NCBI GenBank assembly: GCA_022072085.1
Contig: JAJVII010000060.1
Location: 1-64,000, forward strand
Source: Phycisphaerae bacterium
GTDB taxonomy: Bacteria > Planctomycetota > Phycisphaerae > JAJVII01
DNA: 64,000 nt
Direction: 5' to 3'
Shown piece after piece: positions 5,824 through 18,096 of the stretch. The notes beneath the pieces are model-generated. The model was not told where the DNA came from. It was given only the letters and a program-made list of their open reading frames with translations, and did not search any database. Positions within the stretch are counted from its first letter, which is position 1; each line of letters opens with the position of its first letter. The translations under genes and the position numbers were made by a program.

Positions 5824-6339
5824 TCAGAACGCGATGGTCTGGCGCGGAACGGCTGATGTGGTGGTTGTCGCGGTGTTGCCGCCGACGTTGAGCGTCATCG
5901 AGAGCGTCAGCCGCGGCGGGTTGGTGGTCCACTGCGGCGAAGGGATCGAAAACGCGTCGACGTGATCGACCGTGCCGAGGCTTTCGACGGCCAGCGTGTC
6001 CAGGTTCATGCGTGAAAGCGTGACCTGCTTCTGGCCCGCGGAGTAGACGTAGATGTACTGGTAGTTCTCGTCGGGGGTTTCCACTTCAATCCGGTTGCCG
6101 CTGTCGCTGACGTTGAGGTAGCTGCTGCGCCGGGCCTGGTTCATGATGCGATAGCTCAGGACGCGGGCGGCCTGCGTGGCGTCGGCCAGCTCCTGGTTCT
6201 CGGTGTAGCTGGAGAAGCTGCCGTCGAAGGCGATGCTGACGGCCATCAGCAGCACGGCGGTGATGGCCAGCGCTATCAGCAGTTCGATCAGGCTGACGCC
6301 GGTGCGGCGGGCGCGGGATGTGCGAACGCGCCTGGTCAC
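5824..6339 (-). CDS. Minor pseudopilin, PilW/PulJ-like
   Basis: 171 residues from a GTG at 6339 that overlaps the stop of the upstream gene (GTGA). The N-terminus has a type III/IV prepilin signal: RRTGVSLIELLIALAITAVLLMAVSIAF, with Glu at mature position 5. The body is beta-rich (QARRSSYLNVSDSGNRIEVE), as in minor pseudopilins that cap a pilus. It is the last gene of the minus-strand pilin set. Three bases separate its stop from the stop of the convergent binding-protein gene. Confidence 0.85.
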   Translation of the reverse strand: MTRRVRTSRARRTGVSLIELLIALAITAVLLMAVSIAFDGSFSSYTENQELADATQAARVLSYRIMNQARRSSYLNVSDSGNRIEVETPDENYQYIYVYSAGQKQVTLSRMNLDTLAVESLGTVDHVDAFSIPSPQWTTNPPRLTLSMTLNVGGNTATTTTSAVPRQTIAF

Positions 6340-7778
6340 GGCGTGATCTCCTGGTAGCTGCTGGGCACGAGCTGGAGAACCTTGAGCTTGTCGAAGACCA
6401 GGCCGGCCGGGACGTCGTCCGTGCCGCCCTTGATGAAGTAGAGGTCCACCGAGTCGAACTTGGTGAACTGGCGGCGGCGGTCGACGAGGATCGCCCCGCG
6501 GACCGTGCCGGTGGTCTTTCCGTTGAGGTCCAGTTCACTGGTGTAGATCGTGCCGTTGACGGTTCCCATCGCGCCGTTGAACTCGGTCTCGTAGTCCGGG
6601 GCGAGGATGAATGAGCCGGTCTTGTCGCGCAGCCCGGCGTACTCGGCCGTATCGGGCAGATTCTCCACGCCGCTGCTGGTGACCGCGCCGTTGAAGCGGA
6701 GCAGGTTGGTGGCCGGGTCGTCCACGTCGGGCGTGTAGGGCGGCGGCTGGCAGGCGATGATGCCCGTGATCGTGGCGCTGCCGTTGAAGGTGACGCGGTT
6801 GGGCCACTCGATGTAGATCAGCCCCTGGATGTTGACCCCGCTCTTGAAGGTCGGATTGGCGCCGGCCTTGATGAGGACGTTGTGAAGGCTGCTCATCGAA
6901 CTCGTGTCGGTCGTGCTCGTGACGACCGTGCGGGGCAGGGCCGCGATCAGGGACGCGAACGGCGCCGTGTCGACCGTCGGCCACTGGGGCTCCGGAACGC
7001 CGGAGTGCGTGTGGGCGTCCTCGTTGCTGTCGTAGGTCGTCCCGTCAGCCGACAGGAAGGTGGAGTTCGTGTTGTTGAACACGTCGGCGCCGGTCAGGCC
7101 GTCCTTGGTCATGTAGAAGTCGCCGTCGAACTGCCCCGTTCCGTTGACGCGGATCGGCCGCCAGGCTTCGGTGTCCAGGCTCATCACCGCGCTGCCGCCG
7201 GGGATGTTCGACCGCATGGTGGCTGCCCCGTTGAACACCAGGGCCCCCTGGCTGCTGATGCCGTGCTGGAGGATCATCCTATCCAGGGGACCCTCGGCCT
7301 CGGCGAAGTCGATGCGGATCGTGCGGCTGACGTCGCGCATCCTCCCGGTCACCTCGAGGATGTAGGTCGTTCCGTTGCGGGAAATCCTCGCGCTGAAAAC
7401 CGTATCGGGCATGGCGGCGTCGGCGGCGATTTCCGGTACGAGAATCTGCGTCTGCGAATACGCGACCGAGTGGCCGCTCGTGTTCATCGTACCGTCGAAC
7501 TCGGCGGCGAGCTGCTGGCCCAGGCCAGTGAAGATTTCGTCGCTGCTCAGGTTGCCCTTGAACGTCAGCCCGGCGATGTGGTAGCGCAGAATGCTCAGGC
7601 CCGACTCGGCCGCCCGCATCGCCCGGTCGATTCGACCGACGTTGGCGCTGGCCTCGGTGTTGGCGCCGCTCATCGCGACGTAGGCCGTCGCCAGCGAGGC
7701 GAACAGCACGACGTAGACCGTCGCCATCAGCGACGAAAAGCCCGCACGGACACGAAGGGCACGTCTGTCGGTGATCAT
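6336..7778 (-). CDS. PilX-like pilus assembly protein (second tandem copy)
   Basis: 480 residues, ATG at 7778. The N-terminus is not a full prepilin motif but has the PilX-type hydrophobic helix GFSSLMATVYVVLFASLATAYVAMSGANTEAS followed by AMRAAESGLSILRYH; AAESG is typical of PilX N-terminal domains. The rest is a run of beta strands with repeated FNG/VNG motifs (VFNGAATMRSN, VNGTGQFDGDFY, FNGSATITGII, FNGAMGTVNG, LNGKTTGTVRG), which suggests a beta-solenoid or stacked-strand domain. It is about half identical by eye to the gene at 7800-9338, in the same order throughout. Confidence 0.82.
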   Translation of the reverse strand: MITDRRALRVRAGFSSLMATVYVVLFASLATAYVAMSGANTEASANVGRIDRAMRAAESGLSILRYHIAGLTFKGNLSSDEIFTGLGQQLAAEFDGTMNTSGHSVAYSQTQILVPEIAADAAMPDTVFSARISRNGTTYILEVTGRMRDVSRTIRIDFAEAEGPLDRMILQHGISSQGALVFNGAATMRSNIPGGSAVMSLDTEAWRPIRVNGTGQFDGDFYMTKDGLTGADVFNNTNSTFLSADGTTYDSNEDAHTHSGVPEPQWPTVDTAPFASLIAALPRTVVTSTTDTSSMSSLHNVLIKAGANPTFKSGVNIQGLIYIEWPNRVTFNGSATITGIIACQPPPYTPDVDDPATNLLRFNGAVTSSGVENLPDTAEYAGLRDKTGSFILAPDYETEFNGAMGTVNGTIYTSELDLNGKTTGTVRGAILVDRRRQFTKFDSVDLYFIKGGTDDVPAGLVFDKLKVLQLVPSSYQEITP

Positions 7779-7799
7779 GGCATCACTTCCCTGCCGGCC

Positions 7800-9338
7800 T
7801 CACGGCTCGGCGTAACTGCTGGGCACGACTTTGAGCACCTTGTTGCTGGGGAACTGGAGGCCGGCCATGTCCTCGTCGCCCTCCTGAACCTCGAAGTACA
7901 CGTTCATCGAACCGTTCTTGCTGAACTCCAGCCGCCGGTCCACGATGATCGAGCCGCGAATCGTGCCCGACGTGGCTCCGTTCATCCGCAGGCTGCTGGT
8001 GTAGATCGAGCCGACCACATTCCCGAACGCCCCGTTGAACGTCACCCCCGTGTCCGGCGCCAGCAGGAACGTGTGCAGCTTGTCGCGCAGCCCGGCGTAC
8101 TCGGCGGTGTCCGGGAGGTTGTCCGGGCCCCGGGCGTTGATCGAACCGTTGAACGTCAGGCTGTTGGTCGGCTCGGCGTTCACGTCCGGCTCAAACGGCG
8201 GCTTCTCGAAGACGATCATTCCGGTGATGTTCAGCGACCCGTTGAAGCGGATGTCGTTGGGCCACTCGACGTAGACCAGCCCGTTGATCGTCGTCGTGCC
8301 GTTGAACCTGACGTTCGAGTTGGCCGGGATCAGGACATTGTGCAGGTCCTGCACGCCGTTCTGGTTACTGTTGACCACGGTGTGGGGCAGTGCCGTGATG
8401 AGGTTGGCGAAAGTCTCGGTGTCCACCTCTGGCCAGGTCGGCTCGGTGATGCCGGCGTGCACGTGGGCGTCGGCGTCGGTCTCGTACTGGCCTGTCTCGG
8501 CGTTCAGGAACCGGTGCGAGCCGTTGAAGATGTCGCCGGCCTCGACGCCCGCCTTCACGGTGTAGAAGTCGCCGTCGTACTGGCCAGACCCGTTGACGTG
8601 GATGGGCTGCCAGGCGTCGGCGTCCAGGCTCATCACCGACGAGCCGCCGGGGACGTTCGACCGCAGGACCGCCGACCCGTTGATGTCGATCGAGCCGCGG
8701 CTGATGATGCCGTGCGTCGGGAACCCGCCGCTGCCCGGGGCATTGGCTTCAGCCAGCGTCAACTGGAGTCGGCGGTCGATCCCGTGACAGTCGCCGGTCA
8801 CCGTGAGGACGTAGTTCGCTCCGTCGCGGGTGATCGTCGCGGCGAACGTGCTGCCCGGCAGCGACGAATCGGTCGAGATCGACGGGATGACGATGCGGCT
8901 GCCGTCATACTGGACGTGCTGCGTGCCGGCGTTCATCGTGCCGTCGAACGTGGCCGCCAATTGCTCGCCCAGCGCTTGGAATACCTCGTCGCTGGTCGTG
9001 CGGCCGGCGAAGGTCAGGCCGGCCATGTGATACCGCAGCACTGACAGGCCCGACTCGGCTGCGGTGTAGGCCACCTGGTCGCCGCGCGTGTTGCCGGAGA
9101 CCTCCGCGTTGGACCCGCTCATGGCCGCGTAGGCGACGGCCAGGCCCGAGAAGAGAATCAGGTAGAAGGTGGCCAGCACCGACGAAAATCCGCGCCGCGT
9201 GCGGCCCAGGAACGGCGGCAGGCCCGTCGGCCGGGGCGGGTCCGGCGGACCCTCGACGCCCGGATGCACCTGCCGTCGCGGCCGGACGACGGGACGGCTG
9301 CCCGCCCCCGCGTCGTTCTGTCGCGTCTGATCGCTCAT
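7800..9338 (-). CDS. PilX-like pilus assembly protein (first tandem copy)
   Basis: 512 residues from the ATG at 9338, two bases after the stop of the preceding pseudopilin gene. An extra N-terminal 45 residues (Arg/Pro-rich, cytoplasmic) precede RRGFSSVLATFYLILFSGLAVAYAAMSGSNAEVSGN and AYTAAESGLSVLRYHMAGL. The beta-rich body carries the same NG repeats as its neighbour (INGSAVLRSN, VNGSGQYDGDFY, FNGTTTINGL, FNGSLNITGMI, FNGAFGNVVG). Matching landmarks, such as SNVPGGSSVMSLDADAW against SNIPGGSAVMSLDTEAW, show tandem duplication. Likely role: a surface or adhesive component assembled with the minor pseudopilins. Confidence 0.82.
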   Translation of the reverse strand: MSDQTRQNDAGAGSRPVVRPRRQVHPGVEGPPDPPRPTGLPPFLGRTRRGFSSVLATFYLILFSGLAVAYAAMSGSNAEVSGNTRGDQVAYTAAESGLSVLRYHMAGLTFAGRTTSDEVFQALGEQLAATFDGTMNAGTQHVQYDGSRIVIPSISTDSSLPGSTFAATITRDGANYVLTVTGDCHGIDRRLQLTLAEANAPGSGGFPTHGIISRGSIDINGSAVLRSNVPGGSSVMSLDADAWQPIHVNGSGQYDGDFYTVKAGVEAGDIFNGSHRFLNAETGQYETDADAHVHAGITEPTWPEVDTETFANLITALPHTVVNSNQNGVQDLHNVLIPANSNVRFNGTTTINGLVYVEWPNDIRFNGSLNITGMIVFEKPPFEPDVNAEPTNSLTFNGSINARGPDNLPDTAEYAGLRDKLHTFLLAPDTGVTFNGAFGNVVGSIYTSSLRMNGATSGTIRGSIIVDRRLEFSKNGSMNVYFEVQEGDEDMAGLQFPSNKVLKVVPSSYAEP

Positions 9339-9340
9339 GG

Positions 9341-9892
9341 TCAGTTCCCCGTGTCCTGCGTGGCGAAGTCGGCCACCAGCCATGACATCTGGTGGACCTG
9401 CTTCGTCCCCTTGTAAATTCGGACGGTGACGCGCACGAAGTCGGTCGACCCCTGCGGCACGGTCAGGTGGCCGGCCAGGTTGTTGGGGTCGACGCTCTCG
9501 ACGGAAATTTGCTGCCGCCAGTCGCTCCACTCCTGGCCGCTCAGCGTCTGCCGCTGGGCGTTGACCGGCGGGGAGAAGCTTCGGCCGTTGAAGTCGTCCA
9601 GGTCGTCCCATGCGGCCAGGGAAGTCTCGCCGCTCTCGGCGCCGAAAGTCGTGCTGCCCTCCTCCCGCATGGGCAGGGGGGCGAGCATCTCCCGAACCTC
9701 CTGGGCCAGGAAGATCGCGCGGACGAGGTCGCGGCTGCCGGCGTTGCTGCGGGTTCCGGCGCCCATGACGGCCAACAGCGCGACGACGGCCACCCCGATG
9801 ATGACCGTCGTCAGGGCCGCTTCAATGAGCATGAAGCCGCGACGGCCCGATCGGCGCGGAACGGGTACGAGTTTCAAGGGTCGGCGCAACAT
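9341..9892 (-). CDS. Pseudopilin, PilV/PulI-like
   Basis: 183 residues, ATG at 9892. The prepilin signal RRGFMLIEAALTTVIIGVAVVALLAVMG is at residues 18-45, with cleavage before Phe and Glu at mature position 5. The following helix (GSRDLVRAIFLAQEVREMLAPL) is typical of PilV/GspI proteins. It starts the four-gene pseudopilin set, 210 bases downstream of pilC and its putative terminator. Confidence 0.85.
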   Translation of the reverse strand: MLRRPLKLVPVPRRSGRRGFMLIEAALTTVIIGVAVVALLAVMGAGTRSNAGSRDLVRAIFLAQEVREMLAPLPMREEGSTTFGAESGETSLAAWDDLDDFNGRSFSPPVNAQRQTLSGQEWSDWRQQISVESVDPNNLAGHLTVPQGSTDFVRVTVRIYKGTKQVHQMSWLVADFATQDTGN

Positions 9893-10102: not shown

Positions 10103-11329
10103 TCACTTCACCAGGCTGGAGAGCTTGAAGATCGGCAGCACGATCGACATCGCGATGAAGCCGACCACAAGACCCATAATCACGATCATCAGCGGTTCGA
10201 TCATGGCCGTCACGTTCTTGATGACCGTCCGAAGTTCCTTGGAGTAGAAGGTCGAAACGTCGTCGAGCACCTCGCCCAGGCGGCCGGACTCCTCGCCGCT
10301 GGCGATCATCTGCACCACCGAGCGGGGCAGGTAGTTGGACCGCAGCAGCGGGGCCGAAATCTTCTTGCCCTGCTTGACCGAACTGAAGACCAGCATCCAC
10401 AGGTTGCGGTAGTGCACGTTGCCGCTGATCTGGGCGGTGATCGAAATCACGTCCAGCATCGGCACGCCGGCGTTGACCAGCACGCCCATGGTGTGCAGGC
10501 TTCGGCTGATGTAGAGGGCCCGGCACATCCGCTTGAAGATCGGGATGCGCAGCTTCACGCCGTCCCACCAGGTCCGCCCGCCGACCGTTCGGATCAGCAG
10601 CAGGAAGCCCCAGATCGACGCCCCGATGAGCATCAGCAGCAGCCACCAGTACTCGATCATGAACCCGGACATGCCCAGCAGCAACTTGGTCGGCGCGGGC
10701 AGGGCGGCTTCCTTGCCCTCGAAGATCGTGACGAACTTGGGCAGCACGTAGGTCAGCAGGAACACGGTGGTAGTGACGGCCATCACCGCGATGATGATCG
10801 GGTAGATCATGGCCGACCGGACCATCGAACGGGTCTCGGACTGCTGGGTCAGGTAGTCGGCGATGCGGTCGAGCATCTTGCCGAACGAGCCCGACATCTC
10901 CGACGCCCGCACCATGTTCAGGTAGAGCGGCGAGAAGGTCTTGGGGAAGCGGGCCAGCGAATCGCTGAGCTGCTTGCCGCCCTCGAGGTCGCGGCGGACC
11001 TGGTCGAGCATCTCCTTGAACTTCGGCTTGGAGGTCTGCTCGGCGATGCCTTCGATGGCGGCTCGCAGGCTGATGCCGGCCTTTATCATCACGCCGAGTT
11101 GGTTCGTGAAGTTCAGGACGTCCTTGAGCGTCGGGTTGCCGCCGACGCGGAACTGCATGACCGACGCCCCGCCGCCGCTCTTGCGCGGGGCGGCTGCCGG
11201 CGCCAGCGCCAGGATGTGCCCGCCCTGGCGGCGCAGCATCTCGCTGGCCTCGGTCATGTTCGTGGCGACCATTACGCCCGAGGCGACCTGGCCTCCCGTC
11301 TGCCGGATTTCAAACCGATAGTGCGGCAT
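10103..11329 (-). CDS. pilC: Type IV pilus inner-membrane platform protein PilC/GspF
   Basis: 408 residues from the ATG at 11329 (GGAAG just upstream); an in-frame TTG at 11353 is less likely. Two T2SSF domains are visible: residues about 62-185 (LNFTNQLGVMIKAGISLRAAIE with LEGGKQLSDSLARFPKTFSPLYLNMVRASEMSG) and about 265-390 (ALYISRSLHTMGVLVNAGVPMLDVI with LPRSVVQMIASGEESGRLGEVL). Three long hydrophobic helices match the family. It is the membrane core onto which PilB and PilT dock. The family length (about 400) is normal. Confidence 0.95.
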   Translation of the reverse strand: MPHYRFEIRQTGGQVASGVMVATNMTEASEMLRRQGGHILALAPAAAPRKSGGGASVMQFRVGGNPTLKDVLNFTNQLGVMIKAGISLRAAIEGIAEQTSKPKFKEMLDQVRRDLEGGKQLSDSLARFPKTFSPLYLNMVRASEMSGSFGKMLDRIADYLTQQSETRSMVRSAMIYPIIIAVMAVTTTVFLLTYVLPKFVTIFEGKEAALPAPTKLLLGMSGFMIEYWWLLLMLIGASIWGFLLLIRTVGGRTWWDGVKLRIPIFKRMCRALYISRSLHTMGVLVNAGVPMLDVISITAQISGNVHYRNLWMLVFSSVKQGKKISAPLLRSNYLPRSVVQMIASGEESGRLGEVLDDVSTFYSKELRTVIKNVTAMIEPLMIVIMGLVVGFIAMSIVLPIFKLSSLVK

Positions 11330-11420
11330 GGCTCTTCCGTCCGCGTCAGCCAACCGGCGCCGTTCCTCGACCCCCGGCGCCCGTTGCTGTCGTGCCTCTC
11401 CTGTTCCCTGGTCTCTGACC

Positions 11421-11458: not shown

Positions 11459-12517
11459 TCATGCACACATCGCCTGCTGGAGTTTGTCGGGGTGGGACGC
11501 CTTGCTCAGGGCGTCGTCCCGGCTGATCCGGCCGTTGAGGTAGTGCGTCTTGATCGACTCGTCCAGCGACTGCATTCCGATCGCCCGGTTGGTCTCGATG
11601 ACGTTGGGAATCTCAAAGATGCGGTTCTCGCGGATGCAGTTGCGGACCGCCGGCGTGCAGATCATCACCTCGACGCCGGGGACCATGCCCGGCTGGTCGA
11701 TCCGTTTGAAGAGCACCTGGCTGAGCACGGCCTGTAGCGTGTTGGCCAGCATCGAGCGGATCTGGTTCTGCTCGGTCTCGGGGTACATGTCGATGATGCG
11801 CTCGATCGTCTGCGACGCGTTGTTGGTGTGCAGCGTCGAGAGGACCAGGTGGCCGGTTTCGGCGGCGGTGATGGCGGCCCGGGTGGTCTCCAGGTCGCGC
11901 ATTTCGCCGATGAGGATGACGTCGGGGTCCTGTCGCAGGACATGCCGCAGGCCGCTGGCGAAGTTGGGGCAGTCCTGCCCGATCTCGCGCTGCTCGATCG
12001 CGCTGCGATTGCTCTTGAGCGAATACTCGACGGGGTCCTCCAGCGTGATAATGTGCTTGGCGTAGTGCCGGTTGACCTTCTCGATCATCGCGGCCAGCGT
12101 GGTTGACTTGCCCGAGCCGGTGTCGCCGGTGACCAGCACCAGGCCGCGGGGCAGGTGGGGCATCCGCGAGACGGCCTCGGGCAGGTTCAGCTCTTCCAGC
12201 GGGCGGACGCGGTCCTGGATCGCTCGCATGGCGATCGCGACCGTGCCGCCCTGGAAGTGGGCGTTGACGCGGAATCGGCCGAGGCCCGCGACCTCAGTCG
12301 AGAAGTCGATGTCGCGGTTCTGCTCGAATCGCTCCATCCGCTCGGGGCCGAGCATCTCCTCGGCCATCCGCTTGGCGCCCTCGGCGGTGGTGATGGGGTA
12401 GTCGGTCCGCTGCAACTCGGTGTGCAGCCGGATCAGGGGGGGCAGCCCGACGATGATGTGCACGTCGGACGCGCCGGCCTGCAACGCCTCAGCCAGTATC
12501 TTGTTCAGAATGCTCAT
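11459..12517 (-). CDS. pilT: Type IV pilus retraction ATPase PilT
   Basis: 352 residues; ATG at 12517 with GGAG nine bases before it. Motifs in order: the PilT N-terminal ASDVHIIVGLPPLIRLHTEL, Walker A GDTGSGKSTTLAAM, Asp box ITLEDPVEY, Walker B DVILIGEMRDLETTRAAITAAETGHLV, His box STLHTNNASQTIERIIDMYP. The C-terminal retraction signature of PilT (AIRNLIRE in most family members) appears as AVRNCIREN. Presence of both pilB and pilT suggests a retractable pilus. Confidence 0.96.
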   Translation of the reverse strand: MSILNKILAEALQAGASDVHIIVGLPPLIRLHTELQRTDYPITTAEGAKRMAEEMLGPERMERFEQNRDIDFSTEVAGLGRFRVNAHFQGGTVAIAMRAIQDRVRPLEELNLPEAVSRMPHLPRGLVLVTGDTGSGKSTTLAAMIEKVNRHYAKHIITLEDPVEYSLKSNRSAIEQREIGQDCPNFASGLRHVLRQDPDVILIGEMRDLETTRAAITAAETGHLVLSTLHTNNASQTIERIIDMYPETEQNQIRSMLANTLQAVLSQVLFKRIDQPGMVPGVEVMICTPAVRNCIRENRIFEIPNVIETNRAIGMQSLDESIKTHYLNGRISRDDALSKASHPDKLQQAMCA

Positions 12518-12554
12518 TTCCAATCGCTCCGGGCGGCCCGTGCCGCCTTCAGGT

Positions 12555-14336
12555 TCAGATCGCACTTTCGGTCACGCGCAGGATCTCGTCGATCGTCGTC
12601 ACGCCGGCGGCCACCTTGGCGAAACCGGCCTCGCGCAGGTTCACCATGCCGCGTTCCTTGCAGAACCGCCGCAGCTCGGTCACCGACGGGTTGCCCACGA
12701 TCATGTCGCGGCAGGTGTCGTCCAGCACCAGCAGTTCGTAGATGCCCGTACGCCCGCTGTAGCCGGTCTTGCGGCACTTGTCGCAGCCGCGGCCGCGGAA
12801 GACCTTGTCAGACGGCAGGCCCTGGGTCTGGAGGAAGTCGCGCACCTGGTCGTCGGGCTCCTCCGGCTCCTTGCAGTGGTTGCAGATGTTCCGGGCCAGC
12901 CGCTGGGCCAGCACCGCGTTGACCGACGCGCTGATGAGATACGGCTCGACGCCGATGTTGATCAGCCGCGTGATAGTCGCCGGGGCGTCGTTGGTGTGCA
13001 GCGTCGAGAGGACCAGGTGGCCGGTCAGCGAGGCCTGGACGCTGATGCGGGCGGTCTCCTCGTCGCGGATTTCGCCGACCATGATGACGTCGGGATCCTG
13101 CCGCAGCAGGGACCGCAGGGCGGCGGCGAAGGTCATGCCGATGCGCTCGCTCACCTGCACCTGGTTGGCGAAGGGGAGCTGATACTCCACCGGGTCCTCG
13201 ACCGTCGAGATGTTCAGCGAGGCCCCGTCCATCGTCCGCAGCGCCGAGTAGAGCGTCGTGGTCTTGCCCGAGCCGGTCGGGCCGGTCACCAGCACGATGC
13301 CGTGCGGGTTCTCGATCTGGCGCTGGAAGATGTTCCGCGTGTCCTCGTCCATGCCCAGCCGCTCCAGGCCCAGCAGGATGGAGCGGTTGTCCAGGATTCG
13401 GATGACCGCCTTTTCGCCGTGGGTGACCGGCAGCGTGCTGACGCGCAGGTCCACGTGGCGGTTGTTGATCATCGCCTGGATGCGCCCGTCCTGCGGCAGG
13501 CGGCGTTCGGAGATGTCCAGGTTGCTCATGATCTTCAGACGAGAGATCACCGCCGGGTGCAGCGACTGGGACGGCCGCGACTGCTCGAACAGCACGCCGT
13601 CGATGCGGTAACGCACTTTGAAAGTCGTCTCGCCCGGCTCGATGTGGATGTCCGACGCCCCCTGGCGGACGGCGTTGTAGATCAGGTAGTTCACGAACCG
13701 GATGACCGGGCTCTCGCCGGCGAATTTCTCCAGGTCGCCGATCTCCTCGACCTGGGTGTCCATGATCTCGACCTGGTCGTCGACGCCTTCTTCCATCTCC
13801 TCGAACAGGTCGTCGACGTCGGCCTCCATCGGGTTGCTGTTCAGCTCGCCGAGGACCTTGCGGATGTCGGTGGCGGTTGCGACGACGATGTCGACGGGTC
13901 GGCCGCCGGCCTTGCGCCGCGCCTCCTCGTGCAGGAAGATGTTGGCCGGCTCGCAGGTCGCGACGACCAGCGTGCCCTCGGGCGTGATGCGCAGCGGCAG
14001 CAGCAGCGAGTGGGTGAGGAAGTCCATCGGCAGGGCGGCCACCGCGTCATCCTGCACCTGGGCCCGCGCCAGCCGCTCGAAGGACAGGCCGTCGCGCTCA
14101 GCAAGGCAGGCCATCAGGTCGGTCTCGTTGATCGCGCCGCTCTCGACCAGAGCCTGGCCGATGCTCTTGCCGGGATGGTCGGCCGTCAGTTTCGCGGCGT
14201 TCTCGATCTGCTGCGGAGTGACCAGGCTGCGGTCGAGGAGGATTTCCTCCAGGCGCATGGGGCGGGTGATCTGCTCGTCGGGGACGTAGAGCAGGTCGAA
14301 CCCTTCGGCGCCGTTCTGGACCGGCTTCTTGCCCAT
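12555..14336 (-). CDS. pilB: Type IV pilus extension ATPase PilB/GspE
   Basis: 593 residues from the ATG at 14336, which shares one base with the stop of the upstream pilP-like gene (TGATG). An N-terminal MshEN-type domain (about residues 25-175; LEEILLDRSLVTPQQIENA) precedes the motor: SDIHIEP, Walker A GPTGSGKTTTLYS, Walker B DVIMVGEIRDEETA, His box STLHTNDAPATI. A C4 zinc site is present as CNHC and CDKC. MshEN domains in some homologues bind c-di-GMP; this fits the riboswitch upstream of the operon, but binding by this copy is inference. Confidence 0.95.
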   Translation of the reverse strand: MGKKPVQNGAEGFDLLYVPDEQITRPMRLEEILLDRSLVTPQQIENAAKLTADHPGKSIGQALVESGAINETDLMACLAERDGLSFERLARAQVQDDAVAALPMDFLTHSLLLPLRITPEGTLVVATCEPANIFLHEEARRKAGGRPVDIVVATATDIRKVLGELNSNPMEADVDDLFEEMEEGVDDQVEIMDTQVEEIGDLEKFAGESPVIRFVNYLIYNAVRQGASDIHIEPGETTFKVRYRIDGVLFEQSRPSQSLHPAVISRLKIMSNLDISERRLPQDGRIQAMINNRHVDLRVSTLPVTHGEKAVIRILDNRSILLGLERLGMDEDTRNIFQRQIENPHGIVLVTGPTGSGKTTTLYSALRTMDGASLNISTVEDPVEYQLPFANQVQVSERIGMTFAAALRSLLRQDPDVIMVGEIRDEETARISVQASLTGHLVLSTLHTNDAPATITRLINIGVEPYLISASVNAVLAQRLARNICNHCKEPEEPDDQVRDFLQTQGLPSDKVFRGRGCDKCRKTGYSGRTGIYELLVLDDTCRDMIVGNPSVTELRRFCKERGMVNLREAGFAKVAAGVTTIDEILRVTESAI

Positions 14337-15178
14337 CAGTACGTCATCTCCAGGCGGAACTTGGCCCCGTCGCGCGAGAGGGAGACCCATCGCGGCTGGA
14401 TATCGTCGACGGTGAAGCCCTCAATGACCGAGCCGGGGCGGACGATCGTTGAGTTGATCATCGCCTGGTAGCCGGACGGGCCGCTGAGGATCGACTGGAG
14501 CGTGAGCTTCTGGAGGTCCTTGGCGGCCAACTCAGCCTTCTTCTTATGAGCGGCTTCGTCGGCTTCCTTTTGTTTGCGGGCGGCCTCGGCGGCGGCCTCG
14601 GAGTCTTCGAGCTTGAACTCGAAGGGGTTGGCCCGCAGGTCTTCGAGGGGGACCTGGTTCTTGGCGGTGAAGTTGTAGAACATATCGACCAGACCCTGCG
14701 TGTCTTTCATCAGGGCCTCGGGGGAGCGGCTCTTCTTGCTGGCGTCGGCCGCGGGCTTGTCGCTGGACGACTGCTGGATCGCCTCCTGGCGGGCCAGGAA
14801 CTTCTTGATCGCCGAGTCAACTTCCTGCTGCTTCTTCTCCTGGGCCGCCGACGACTTGTCAGGCCCGCCGCGCAGCGACATGAACGCGACCAGCCCGACG
14901 CCGATCAGGAAGATGCCGAAGAAGAAGATGTTCGCGCGGGTCATGTAGGCCTTCAGGCCGGTCGCGGTCTGGGCGATGGGCAGACCTTCCTCGGCGGCGG
15001 CCTCAGCCGCCTGGAGTTCGGGACGCCAGGCGGCGAGGGATTCCTCCTGCGGCGTCTGGCCGGTTTCGACCAGCGTCTGGCCCTTGGCCGGCGAAGGCGC
15101 GGCCCCGGCCGTCTTGAACGACTTGGGCGTCATCGAGAAGCCATCCCCGGCATCGGACGGATGCGGTTCTTTCACCAT
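14336..15178 (-). CDS. PilP-like type IV pilus assembly protein
   Basis: 280 residues, ATG at 15178, overlapping pilO by 7 bases. A long cytoplasmic N-terminus (about 80 residues) is followed by one membrane helix (NIFFFGIFLIGVGLVAFMSL), then a long Lys/Glu/Ala-rich coiled region. The C-terminus (LTLQSILSGPSGYQAMINSTIVRPGSVIEGFTV and then VSLSRDGAKFRLEM) matches the small beta domain of PilP/GspC, which contacts the secretin. PilP is normally a short lipoprotein; here it is membrane-spanning and longer, closer to GspC. No secretin gene is in the window. Confidence 0.75.
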   Translation of the reverse strand: MVKEPHPSDAGDGFSMTPKSFKTAGAAPSPAKGQTLVETGQTPQEESLAAWRPELQAAEAAAEEGLPIAQTATGLKAYMTRANIFFFGIFLIGVGLVAFMSLRGGPDKSSAAQEKKQQEVDSAIKKFLARQEAIQQSSSDKPAADASKKSRSPEALMKDTQGLVDMFYNFTAKNQVPLEDLRANPFEFKLEDSEAAAEAARKQKEADEAAHKKKAELAAKDLQKLTLQSILSGPSGYQAMINSTIVRPGSVIEGFTVDDIQPRWVSLSRDGAKFRLEMTY

Positions 15179-15795
15179 CGCGAACCTCCATGCGAACTGC
15201 TGCTGCCGGACGACTTGCCCGAGGTAATGGTCGCCGGGTTGAAATCAGTGACCTTTTCGCCTCCCTCGGGCTCAAAGTAGATCAGCACGACGAGGGTCAC
15301 CTCGACCTGGCCGGCGGTCGACTTGCCGTCGCTGCGGATTTCCATCTGCTGAATCCGCGTGATGCGGGGCAGGGCCTCCAGCGCCTTAAGGAACTGGTAG
15401 AAGCCCTCGAAGCTGCCGGCGATCTTCATCTCGATCGGCTGGGCGACATAGTCGGCCGACATCACCCGCTTCTGTGTCAGGAACGACCGCGACGAGAGCT
15501 TGTATCTCTCGCGCAGGGCCGTGACTTCCTCCAGCACGGTGTCGATCTGCTGGCTGTTGGGCAGCTTGGACTCGAAGAAGTCCAGGGCCTTCTTCAGCTC
15601 GGTCAGCTCCTTGTTCAGGCTCGTCGAGGCCTGACCGAGCTGGTCCAGTCGCGCCAGCCGCGTTTCCTTCTCCTGCGTGCTGTTGCGTAGCTCAGCCACC
15701 TGCTTGAACCGCGGCACGAACACGAAGAAGGCTGCGCCGGCCGGTATGGCCAGCAGCAGCAGGAAGAACGTCAGTTCGCGAAGTCCGAATTTCAT
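15172..15795 (-). CDS. pilO: Type IV pilus alignment protein PilO
   Basis: 207 residues. One N-terminal membrane helix (LTFFLLLLAIPAGAAFFVFV), a coiled coil with heptad Leu (residues about 35-75), then the ferredoxin-like fold of PilO: IEMKIAGSFEGFYQFLKALEALPRITRIQQMEI. It pairs with PilN in the periplasmic alignment ring. Its stop lies inside the start region of the pilP-like gene. Confidence 0.88.
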   Translation of the reverse strand: MKFGLRELTFFLLLLAIPAGAAFFVFVPRFKQVAELRNSTQEKETRLARLDQLGQASTSLNKELTELKKALDFFESKLPNSQQIDTVLEEVTALRERYKLSSRSFLTQKRVMSADYVAQPIEMKIAGSFEGFYQFLKALEALPRITRIQQMEIRSDGKSTAGQVEVTLVVLIYFEPEGGEKVTDFNPATITSGKSSGSSSSHGGSRW

Positions 15796-15829: not shown

Positions 15830-16543
15830 TTACTTCATCGCCTGGGCCTTGAATTTCTGGTTGCGGGCCATCTCGGGGGTGACCTGCACGTTCTCGTTCA
15901 CGTCGATCAGCACCAGGAACTGCCGCACGACCTCCTTGTCGTAGGTGAATTCCTTGCTGAACAGCAGGTTCACCTCGTCGAACAGCTCCGACTCGCCGAG
16001 GTTGGCGATGAACTTGCTGACCACCTTGTCGTTGGCCGCCATGCCCATAACCTTGATCTGCTCGGTCACCTTCATCGGCGTGGGCTCGTCGTCGGGCCGG
16101 GCGGGCTTGACGGCCCGGCTGGTTCGGCTGTTCTTGACGGCCGTCTTGGCATCGGTCTTGGGCTTCTCTTCCTTGGTGGTCAGTTCCACGCTGGTCAGTC
16201 CCGCGCCGTTTGGCAGGGCATTGGTGATCTCGGCGATGATGTAGTGCCGCGGCCGGCGCTCCAGCAGCGAGGCCGTCACGTCCGCCTTGTGGATCATCTT
16301 CTGCTTCTGCTTCTCCATCTGGTCGATCCACGCGAGCTGCTGGCCGACGTCGGCCAGCCGCGTGTTGACCCGGTCCTGGTCATCGGCCGCCGCCGCCTGT
16401 CGCTTTTCGACGAGCATGAACGCGCCGATCAGCCCGGCCATCACCACCCCGAACAGCACCAGGCAGAGGATGTTCGTCCTCTGCTGCCGGCGCTTCTCCA
16501 GGTAGTCTTCCGGGAGAAAGTTGATCTGGTTGTCCTTGGCCAT
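15830..16543 (-). CDS. pilN: Type IV pilus protein PilN
   Basis: 237 residues. The N-terminal NQINFLPEDYLEKRRQQRT is the PilN motif that binds PilM in the cytoplasm (consensus INLLP). A membrane helix follows (ILCLVLFGVVMAGLIGAFML), then a coiled coil and a periplasmic domain with an inserted Lys/Thr-rich linker (about residues 135-160), which is longer than usual. It is 42 bases from pilM and 34 from pilO, in one operon. Confidence 0.88.
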   Translation of the reverse strand: MAKDNQINFLPEDYLEKRRQQRTNILCLVLFGVVMAGLIGAFMLVEKRQAAAADDQDRVNTRLADVGQQLAWIDQMEKQKQKMIHKADVTASLLERRPRHYIIAEITNALPNGAGLTSVELTTKEEKPKTDAKTAVKNSRTSRAVKPARPDDEPTPMKVTEQIKVMGMAANDKVVSKFIANLGESELFDEVNLLFSKEFTYDKEVVRQFLVLIDVNENVQVTPEMARNQKFKAQAMK

Positions 16544-16585: not shown

Positions 16586-17791
16586 TCACTCCGACTCGGT
16601 CCGGGCCATGCTGCATCCGAACGCGATCGCCCATTCCGGGGCCGGCGTGCCGACCGTCAGGTCGCCGCAGTCCACCCCCGCGTGCGTCCCGTGCAGCCGC
16701 AGCATCGGGTCGCCCAGCATCGCCGGCAGCCGCAGCGCCCGGGCCACCTGCTGGCAGACGGCCGTGTGATGCGACTGGCCGCCCAGAAAGACCAGCCGGT
16801 CCACCGGCCGATCGGGAAACAGCGACTGGTAATACCGCAGGCAGTAGGTCAGCTCGCGCGACAGCCGCTCGACCTGCTCCTCAGCCGCCTCGCGCAACTT
16901 GGCGGCCCGCTCGGCCGTCAGCTTGACCGGCGCCGAGACGGCCACCGCGCCGGCCATGGGCAATTTGCACGCCGCCGTCGCCTCGGACGGATCCGCGGAC
17001 TCGGCGGGAATCTCGCGGTCGCGGGCATCGGCCTCGGCCAGTTCCCGCCGCAGACGGGCCGCGTCGTCGCGCGAGCAATCCAGCCGCGTCGCGACGCCCG
17101 CGTTGATCGTGTGTCCGGCGACGGGGATCTGCTTGACGAAGACGACCTTGGTCGAGTGCGTAATCATCGCGCAGGTCTGGCTGGCGCCGATGTCGACGAA
17201 GAGCGTGGCCATGTCCTGTTCGTTGGACCGGGTGAAAAGGAAGCGGAACGCCTCGATGACGGCCAGCGGCGGGACCATCACCGACTCCACTTCGAGTTTG
17301 GCCCGGGCGATTGCGCCGAGGTGGCGCTCGACGGCCGGCCGCGGGGCGGCCATCAGGATCACTTCGGTCTTGGCTTCGTTCTCGACCATCAGCTCTCCGG
17401 CGATCAGGTGCCGCAGCACCGCGTCGCGCGTGGGGAAGGGCAGCTTGCCCTGGGCCTCCCACGGCAGGGCCTTGGCCAGGTCGGCTTCGCTCATGCGGGC
17501 CATGCGCAGATGGCTGGCGAAGAAGTGCTCCGCCGGCACCGCCGATACGACGCGCTTGCCGCGGAACGGGTGGCTGGCCATCACGTCGCGGAGCGACTCG
17601 GTCAGGAACCGCGCCATCGCCTGAGGGTCGCCGGCCACCGTGGAGGGCACGTCGCGTCGGGCGGCTGCGACGATCCGCGTCTCGCCGTTCTCGCGTGCGA
17701 CCTGGACGACCTTCAGGGAGTCATTGCCCAGGTCGATGCCGATGGGGCAGCTCTTGGCGGAGAACCACTTTTTCAGGTTGACTCCCAGCAC
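16586..17791 (-). CDS. pilM: Type IV pilus actin-like ATPase PilM
   Basis: 401 residues; ATG at 17791. Actin/FtsA-like ATP-binding motifs: phosphate 1 CPIGIDLGNDSLKVVQV (residues 15-31) and phosphate 2 TLFVDIGASQTCAMIT, with the adenosine-side VDRLVFLGGQSHHTAV near residue 340. It is a cytoplasmic ring component that binds the PilN N-terminus. It is the first gene of the pilus operon; its leader (17792-18073) carries a cyclic-dinucleotide riboswitch and an intrinsic terminator. An insertion with Asp/Glu residues at about 240-260 is longer than in proteobacterial PilM. Confidence 0.92.
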   Translation of the reverse strand: MLGVNLKKWFSAKSCPIGIDLGNDSLKVVQVARENGETRIVAAARRDVPSTVAGDPQAMARFLTESLRDVMASHPFRGKRVVSAVPAEHFFASHLRMARMSEADLAKALPWEAQGKLPFPTRDAVLRHLIAGELMVENEAKTEVILMAAPRPAVERHLGAIARAKLEVESVMVPPLAVIEAFRFLFTRSNEQDMATLFVDIGASQTCAMITHSTKVVFVKQIPVAGHTINAGVATRLDCSRDDAARLRRELAEADARDREIPAESADPSEATAACKLPMAGAVAVSAPVKLTAERAAKLREAAEEQVERLSRELTYCLRYYQSLFPDRPVDRLVFLGGQSHHTAVCQQVARALRLPAMLGDPMLRLHGTHAGVDCGDLTVGTPAPEWAIAFGCSMARTESE

Positions 17792-17897
17792 TGCCGCTCT
17801 GCCTCCTCGCGTTGGAATTCCGGCGCCGGCTTCATGCCGGCCAGGCGGGCGTCGTGCGCCTGCCTTCGCGGGCGACTGGGATGGGGATGCGCGCGGG

Positions 17898-17920
17898 AAA
17901 AAAGGCCTGACCGCCTCAGG
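17898..17920 (-). terminator. Intrinsic terminator in the pilM leader
   Basis: On the minus strand CCTGA-GGCGG-TCAGG (17920-17906) is followed by CC and six T (17903-17898). A competing pairing, CCGCC with GGCGG, shares the same bases. A second hairpin (GCCCC/GGGGC, 17946-17963) sits between this and the riboswitch. The layout fits ligand-controlled transcription termination about 107 bases before the pilM start. Confidence 0.75.
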
Positions 17921-17971
17921 GGGCGGCGCCCGTCGGGGGATTTACGCCCCGGCTCATCGGGGCGGGCATCA

Positions 17972-18046
17972 TGGGCAGCCTGGCCGTCCCGGGCGTGCCG
18001 GGACCCAGCGCTTTGCGTCTCCACCTTACGATGGAGTTGCCTTTTT
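17972..18046 (-). promoter_or_regulatory. GEMM-I (c-di-GMP-I class) riboswitch upstream of pilM
   Basis: Minus-strand RNA has all GEMM-I landmarks in order: GGCAAC (18043-18038), a stem CUCCAUC/GGUGGAG closed by a GUAA tetraloop of the GNRA type, the invariant GACGCAAAGC (18019-18010), a second stem GGGUCCC...GGGAC, and GGCCAGGCUGCC, whose UGCC pairs with the first GGCA. The base that I align with position 20 of the Vibrio Vc2 aptamer is G, which favours c-di-GMP over 3,3-cGAMP, though this alignment was made by eye. It precedes a terminator and the pilMNO operon. The family is established; whether ligand turns genes on or off cannot be read. Confidence 0.9.
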
Positions 18047-18067
18047 CCATCTCAGCCTTCCGCGCCA

Positions 18068-18096
18068 AACCTAAAATCCAGCGCCCTTCCAGTCAA
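18068..18096 (-). promoter_or_regulatory. Sigma-70-like promoter of the pilM operon
   Basis: TTGACT (18096-18091), a 17-base spacer, and TAGGTT (18073-18068) on the minus strand. Transcription would start near 18060, about 15 bases before the first riboswitch base, which is the expected arrangement. Confidence 0.6.

Follow-up and report, generated by a model that had tools for sequence, protein, structure and literature searches.

The closest described system is the GEMM-I riboswitch that precedes pilM in Geobacter metallireducens, which is reported to be of the cGAMP type and to act as an ON switch (PMC9262584). In Geobacter sulfurreducens, strains without the cGAMP synthase GacA are reported to express genes within pilMNOP at a 2–3 fold lower level (PMC6456294), and the base equivalent to position 20 of the aptamer is described as guiding ligand selectivity (PMC9262584). 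A further relative is the c-di-GMP-I riboswitch Cd1 of Clostridioides difficile, an OFF switch with a terminator, which demonstrates that an aptamer and a terminator can coexist (PMC9262584). In the alternative fold of Cd1, as in the one modelled here, the 3′ strand of the aptamer is taken (PMC9262584). The initial annotation of the present locus had noted that GEMM-I switches near pilus genes are known from other phyla. Such a precedent does exist but was understated, as detailed work on the pilM switch of Geobacter is available (PMC9262584). In the open-access literature that we searched, outside which most subscription journals lie, no paper addresses by title or abstract the riboswitch control of pili in planctomycetes, and little seems to be known about pilus control or the use of c-di-GMP in these bacteria.

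The leader analysed here lies in a stretch of 64,000 nucleotides from a Phycisphaerae genome, referred to as the window. Like the Geobacter GEMM-Ib switch of pilMNOP (PMC9262584, PMC6456294), it leads a pilM operon and combines a GEMM-I aptamer with a terminator. The Geobacter switch is described as a cGAMP-dependent ON switch whose terminator is built with the 3′ strand of the aptamer (PMC9262584), whereas the window aptamer has the G20 of the c-di-GMP type, its terminator lies further downstream and the direction is weakly modelled as OFF. A GEMM-I switch before pilM is thus already known from Geobacter, and the interesting part is the class-wide use of such switches at two operons for pili.

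In the scan of the window against 4227 families (cmscan, Rfam 15), c-di-GMP-I (GEMM-I, RF01051) is the sole RNA family above its gathering score. The match at 18051–17971 on the minus strand reaches 60.4 bits (gathering score 35 bits) with an E-value of 2.5e-9 and covers the model over its full length (1–87), so the aptamer is a real one and the comparison with the GEMM-I model proposed in the initial annotation is significant. The landmarks named there are all found in the alignment, namely GACGCAAAGC, a GUAA tetraloop of the GNRA type on P2, and GGC paired with GCC. With the family RF01051 the window shares the full-length match, the pocket residues and the surface-structure gene context, and we found no difference in the aptamer core.

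The other elements that had been predicted for the pilM leader could also be located in the expected order, and we confirm a leader with a c-di-GMP-I aptamer in front of pilus genes. The promoter consists of a −35 hexamer TTGACT (18091–18096, minus strand) and, after a spacer of 17 nt, a −10 hexamer TAGGTT (18068–18073, minus strand), and it ends 16 nt upstream of the aptamer. A scan with the sigma-70 consensus did not pick it up because the −10 hexamer matches TATAAT at only three of six positions; it resembles the hexamers TAAGGT, TATGGT and TACGTT of relatives. Counted as TTG, 16–18 nt and TA...T within 70 nt upstream of the aptamer, this promoter type was found at 32 of the 63 related loci, where mononucleotide shuffles lead one to expect 2.5; in the pilM set, 12 of 17 loci have it. 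On the same strand, the aptamer is followed by an extra hairpin, CGCCCCGAUGAGCCGGGGCG (17945–17964), and by a GC-rich, terminator-like hairpin, GGCGCCGCC-CCCUGA-GGCGGUCAGGCC (17904–17930, −13.5 kcal/mol), both from predicted folds, and then directly by a tract of six U (17898–17903). The elements therefore extend from 18096, the start of the −35 hexamer, to 17898, the end of the U tract, exactly the limits given in the initial annotation. The U tract is 106 nt from the GTG start codon of pilM at 17791, and a Shine–Dalgarno-like AGGAGG (17802–17807, minus strand) is found 10 nt before this codon. The terminator scan alone is weak, with two finds in 721 bases on both strands, one of them the opposite strand of the aptamer P2, against 0.7 ± 0.8 expected; a U6 tract right behind such a hairpin is notable in so GC-rich a leader.

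For the residues of the ligand pocket we use the numbering of the Vc2 structure. The alignment places a G at position 20 (18041, minus strand), an A at position 47 (18014, minus strand) and a C at position 92 (17975, minus strand), the last being the partner of the second guanine of the ligand. Because these three residues line the pocket and the cGAMP subclass (GEMM-Ib) has an A at position 20, c-di-GMP is the expected ligand; position 20, which was to be checked according to the initial annotation, is of the c-di-GMP rather than the cGAMP type. Across the 63 aptamers of the class G20 is found in 61, A47 in all and C92 in 61. The genome encodes nine GGDEF matches, one of which has a degenerate GEEEF, and all nine carry the Asp of GHxxGD; in the Hypr enzymes which make cGAMP this Asp is a Ser, and no Hypr-like Ser is present among the nine. 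The ligand could still be 3′,3′-cGAMP or another dinucleotide if the aptamer belonged to GEMM-Ib or to the c-di-GMP-I-GGC variant (RF03167, same clan), given that the Geobacter pilM switches are described as being of the cGAMP type (PMC9262584, PMC6456294) and that RF03167 scores 56.6 bits on the window. This score, however, is below the cut-off of 59 for that model, which has a G at position 47 (GACGCGAAGC) in place of the A47 of the window and of all 63 class aptamers, although RF03167 is above its cut-off in 6 of the 14 aptamers at PilM loci of named public genomes. Taken with G20 and the lack of a Hypr-like Ser, this makes another ligand very unlikely, and cGAMP and the GGC variant were rejected on the pocket residues G20 and A47. 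That the aptamer is a chance match or a decayed and functionless remnant we regard as extremely improbable: we found nothing in favour of this view, and against it stand the full-length match, with an E-value of 2.5e-9 in a search of 64 kb with 4227 families, and aptamers in the same place at 16 other loci. One well-scoring aptamer (locus L045, G238:C95:2682-2760) does carry the A at position 20 that is typical of cGAMP; the copy beside it on that contig has G20.

The expression platform was addressed by folding the leader at different lengths. When the part downstream of the aptamer is folded alone, the lower terminator pair has a probability of 0.53–0.72 (lengths 149–160), and in the unconstrained whole leader one of 0.00–0.02 (lengths 151–160); even when folded alone, the downstream part does not favour the lower stem at a length of 148 (0.06). 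The unconstrained fold pairs the 5′ strand of P1, AAAAAGGC, with GCCUUUUUU and the 3′ strand of P1 with GGGC, and the core of the terminator hairpin is predicted in both states. In a control with the same downstream sequence the probability was below 0.05 with 42 of 61 other natural aptamers (61 of 62 were used, one of more than 110 nt being left out) and with 109 of 200 shuffled aptamers. Since swapped and shuffled aptamers behave alike, the strand-exchange model is no better than chance. In addition, the expression platform is not conserved, as the scan used found a terminator of the window kind in none of the 16 other pilM leaders (1 of 17 with the window), and a conserved terminator among these leaders was therefore rejected. 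In the leaders without terminator the aptamer is 73–157 nt away from the start codon; the window leader is longer and the only one with six U behind a strong hairpin. Under ligand constraint, the accessibility of the ribosome site showed no uniform trend among the 16 of 17 leaders for which it was computed, and exposure of this site was discarded as a common mechanism.

From the folding model we lean towards an OFF switch in the window and give this direction about even chances; it is a lean and not a result, because the model fails its control and because no such terminator is found in the 16 other pilM leaders. An ON switch, in which the ligand prevents the terminator and allows pil transcription, would correspond to G. 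metallireducens, where the terminator is reported to use the 3′ aptamer strand (PMC9262584), and in the window this strand is likewise complementary to the downstream leader. The pairing modelled for the window, however, blocks the lower stem of the terminator rather than building it, and even with a model that does not pass its control an ON switch appears rather unlikely to us. The aptamer might also act on translation or mRNA stability, as presumably in the relatives that lack a terminator, with the U6 hairpin being incidental. Such a mode would fit the 16 of 17 pilM leaders without terminator by the scan used, but it would leave the U tract directly behind a hairpin of −13.5 kcal/mol to coincidence and is not reflected in any consistent ribosome-site change in the 16 leaders, so that on balance we consider it rather unlikely as well.

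We predict that a working c-di-GMP riboswitch probably controls the pilus operon of the window. Transcription would start just upstream of the aptamer, and the nascent aptamer would bind c-di-GMP through G20, A47 and C92. This binding would refold the leader and thereby set the amount of pilM-N-O-(P)-B-T-C that is made, and in the window genome the most likely output is that transcripts end early at the U6 hairpin. Should the folding model hold, c-di-GMP would keep the aptamer together, the full terminator stem would be free to form and the operon would be OFF, and without ligand the two strands of P1 would engage both arms at the base of the terminator and permit read-through.

The genes behind the leader set it apart from Cd1, which controls a flagellar operon. 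All are on the minus strand and Pfam confirms six proteins in the order that had been annotated: pilM (16586–17791, PilM_2, E 1e-22), pilN (15830–16543, PilN, E 1.2e-6), pilO (15172–15795, PilO, E 2.4e-18), the extension ATPase pilB (12555–14390, T2SSE, E 2.3e-141), the retraction ATPase pilT (11459–12565, T2SSE, E 1.2e-50) and the platform protein pilC (10103–11353, T2SSF, E 1.3e-62). These six form the type IVa pilus assembly set and are all above the Pfam cut-offs. The operon can, however, not be called complete, as the initial annotation did. The protein in the position of pilP (14336–15178) has no PilP match, with CdsD_C (25.5 bits, cut-off 27) and T2SSB below cut-off, and the secretin PilQ is absent among the nine operon proteins scanned with Pfam; the five secretin matches of the genome are on the contigs C1, C2, C3, C8 and C41, whereas the window is on C22. 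Downstream a minor-pilin-like open reading frame (9341–9892, minus strand) has a prepilin-like N-terminus by eye and no Pfam match. Beyond pilC, the region 5824–9892 on the minus strand comprises pilin-like open reading frames and two similar long ones, one of them with a sub-threshold match to PilX_N, and these reading frames are probably a minor-pilin set of the same operon.

PilB had also been proposed to bind c-di-GMP, which would add a second layer of control by the same signal, and its N-terminus does contain a degenerate MshEN domain (E 4.1e-14). The MshEN motif, RLGxx(L/V/I)2xxG(L/V/I)2xxxxLxxxLxxQ, is described as being present twice, and binding as being abrogated by mutation of Gly11 (PMC5013675). 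Inspected by eye, both halves are degenerate in the window PilB: motif I, RLEEILLDRSLV... (RLEEILLDRSLVTPQQIENAAKLT), has lost Gly3, Gly10 and Gln24, and motif II, SIGQALVESG...ER (SIGQALVESGAINETDLMACLAER), has lost Arg1 and Gln24. With these key residues gone from both motifs, a second c-di-GMP layer via this PilB is unlikely and the protein was rejected as a candidate receptor. Nine of ten aligned PilB N-termini of relatives are, also by eye, degenerate. The exception is genome G036, in whose PilB both motifs are almost fully retained (QLGQILIDEGVL...AHQ and RLGQVLIERG...LQ, by eye), so that a double layer would be plausible there. In this genome (locus L050, G036:C110:32000-38500) the PilB with nearly intact motifs occurs together with a pilM gene with a c-di-GMP-I aptamer.

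At E ≤ 0.001 the genome of the window (5.49 Mb, 72 contigs, 97% complete) has one c-di-GMP-I match besides that of the pilM leader and no third; this second match is located at C2:97212-97312 (38.8 bits) and has a long P2. Behind this second aptamer (loci L071, G000:C2:96600-103500, and L141) we found two major-prepilin-like genes, minor pilins, a GspH-like protein, paralogues of PilM, PilN and PilO, and the secretin that is missing from the window operon; no pilus ATPase or PilC is present among the 10 proteins scanned in this cluster. From gene order and strand we infer that these genes are on one transcript. As the second copy leads the operon of the fibre side, a single signal could control the two halves of the pilus system.

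Similar arrangements recur in the class, where 63 c-di-GMP-I matches were found in 43 of 397 genomes. The first downstream gene is pilM in 17 cases (the window included), a prepilin in 15, Tad-like in 13 and another gene in 17, and one match is at a contig end. Classes were assigned by tblastn with the window PilM, on which the 16 other pilM loci rest, and, where prepilins and Tad-like proteins are concerned, by regular expressions; the 13 Tad-like cases are a lower bound, since the remaining class still holds Tad-like genes (e.g. in G286). Pfam found Tad or Tad_C above cut-off in four of five candidates outside the PilM and prepilin sets, the fifth being a cadherin-DUF4347 protein. A pilM copy and a prepilin copy occur together in eight genomes (the window genome G000, G110, G140, G146, G158, G182, G202 and G222). 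In named public genomes the related PilM proteins are from planctomycetes, many of them labelled Phycisphaerae or Phycisphaerales, and 14 of 44 PilM loci have an aptamer above the gathering score; of those without one, five have less than 140 bases before the PilM match and are uninformative. The two loci whose PilM is most similar to that of the window, L088 (35% identity) and L089 (36%), have no aptamer. Recurrence before pilM at 16 other class loci and at 14 of the 44 named ones speaks for the proposed riboswitch.

We tentatively propose, as a view that is more doubtful than likely, that c-di-GMP-I riboswitches have become the common regulator of type IV-like filaments in Phycisphaerae-type planctomycetes, with copies before the machine operon (motors, platform and alignment proteins), the fibre operon (pilins and secretin) and Tad-like genes, and that through unlike expression platforms one signal might drive the two halves at different levels or with different thresholds. 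With a working two-operon arrangement, c-di-GMP could be coupled to the production of motor and fibre in this class by RNA sensors and nothing else. The recurring pairs of aptamers are also natural experiments in which a single aptamer family has been adapted to more than one expression platform.

In the phylum survey 132 of 392 genomes have a c-di-GMP-I match. The gene context was inspected for 20 hand-chosen matches among the matches listed, mostly from single-copy genomes, and in this sample pilM is nearby once (L145, 1 kb downstream, by tblastn) and a Tad-like gene is the second gene once (L157). As pilM or Tad-like genes are near so few of these 20 matches, the link with pili seems to belong to the class more than to the phylum. 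Eight of the 20 (L142, L146, L150, L151, L152, L154, L155 and L161) are right before a gene that by eye looks like a sigma factor of the FliA/WhiG type. Genomes of one family (f68; G637, G555, G703, G600, G512 and others) contain up to at least 10 matches each, far above the class of the window. Tad- or TadG-like genes are led by c-di-GMP-I aptamers at the loci L033, L041, L045, L060, L078 and others, and several contigs have at least two aptamers. At three loci (L056, L072 and L075) an open reading frame for a ParA-like ATPase takes the place of pilN after the riboswitch-led pilM, and in genome G169 a riboswitch precedes pilM at two loci (L052 and L056).
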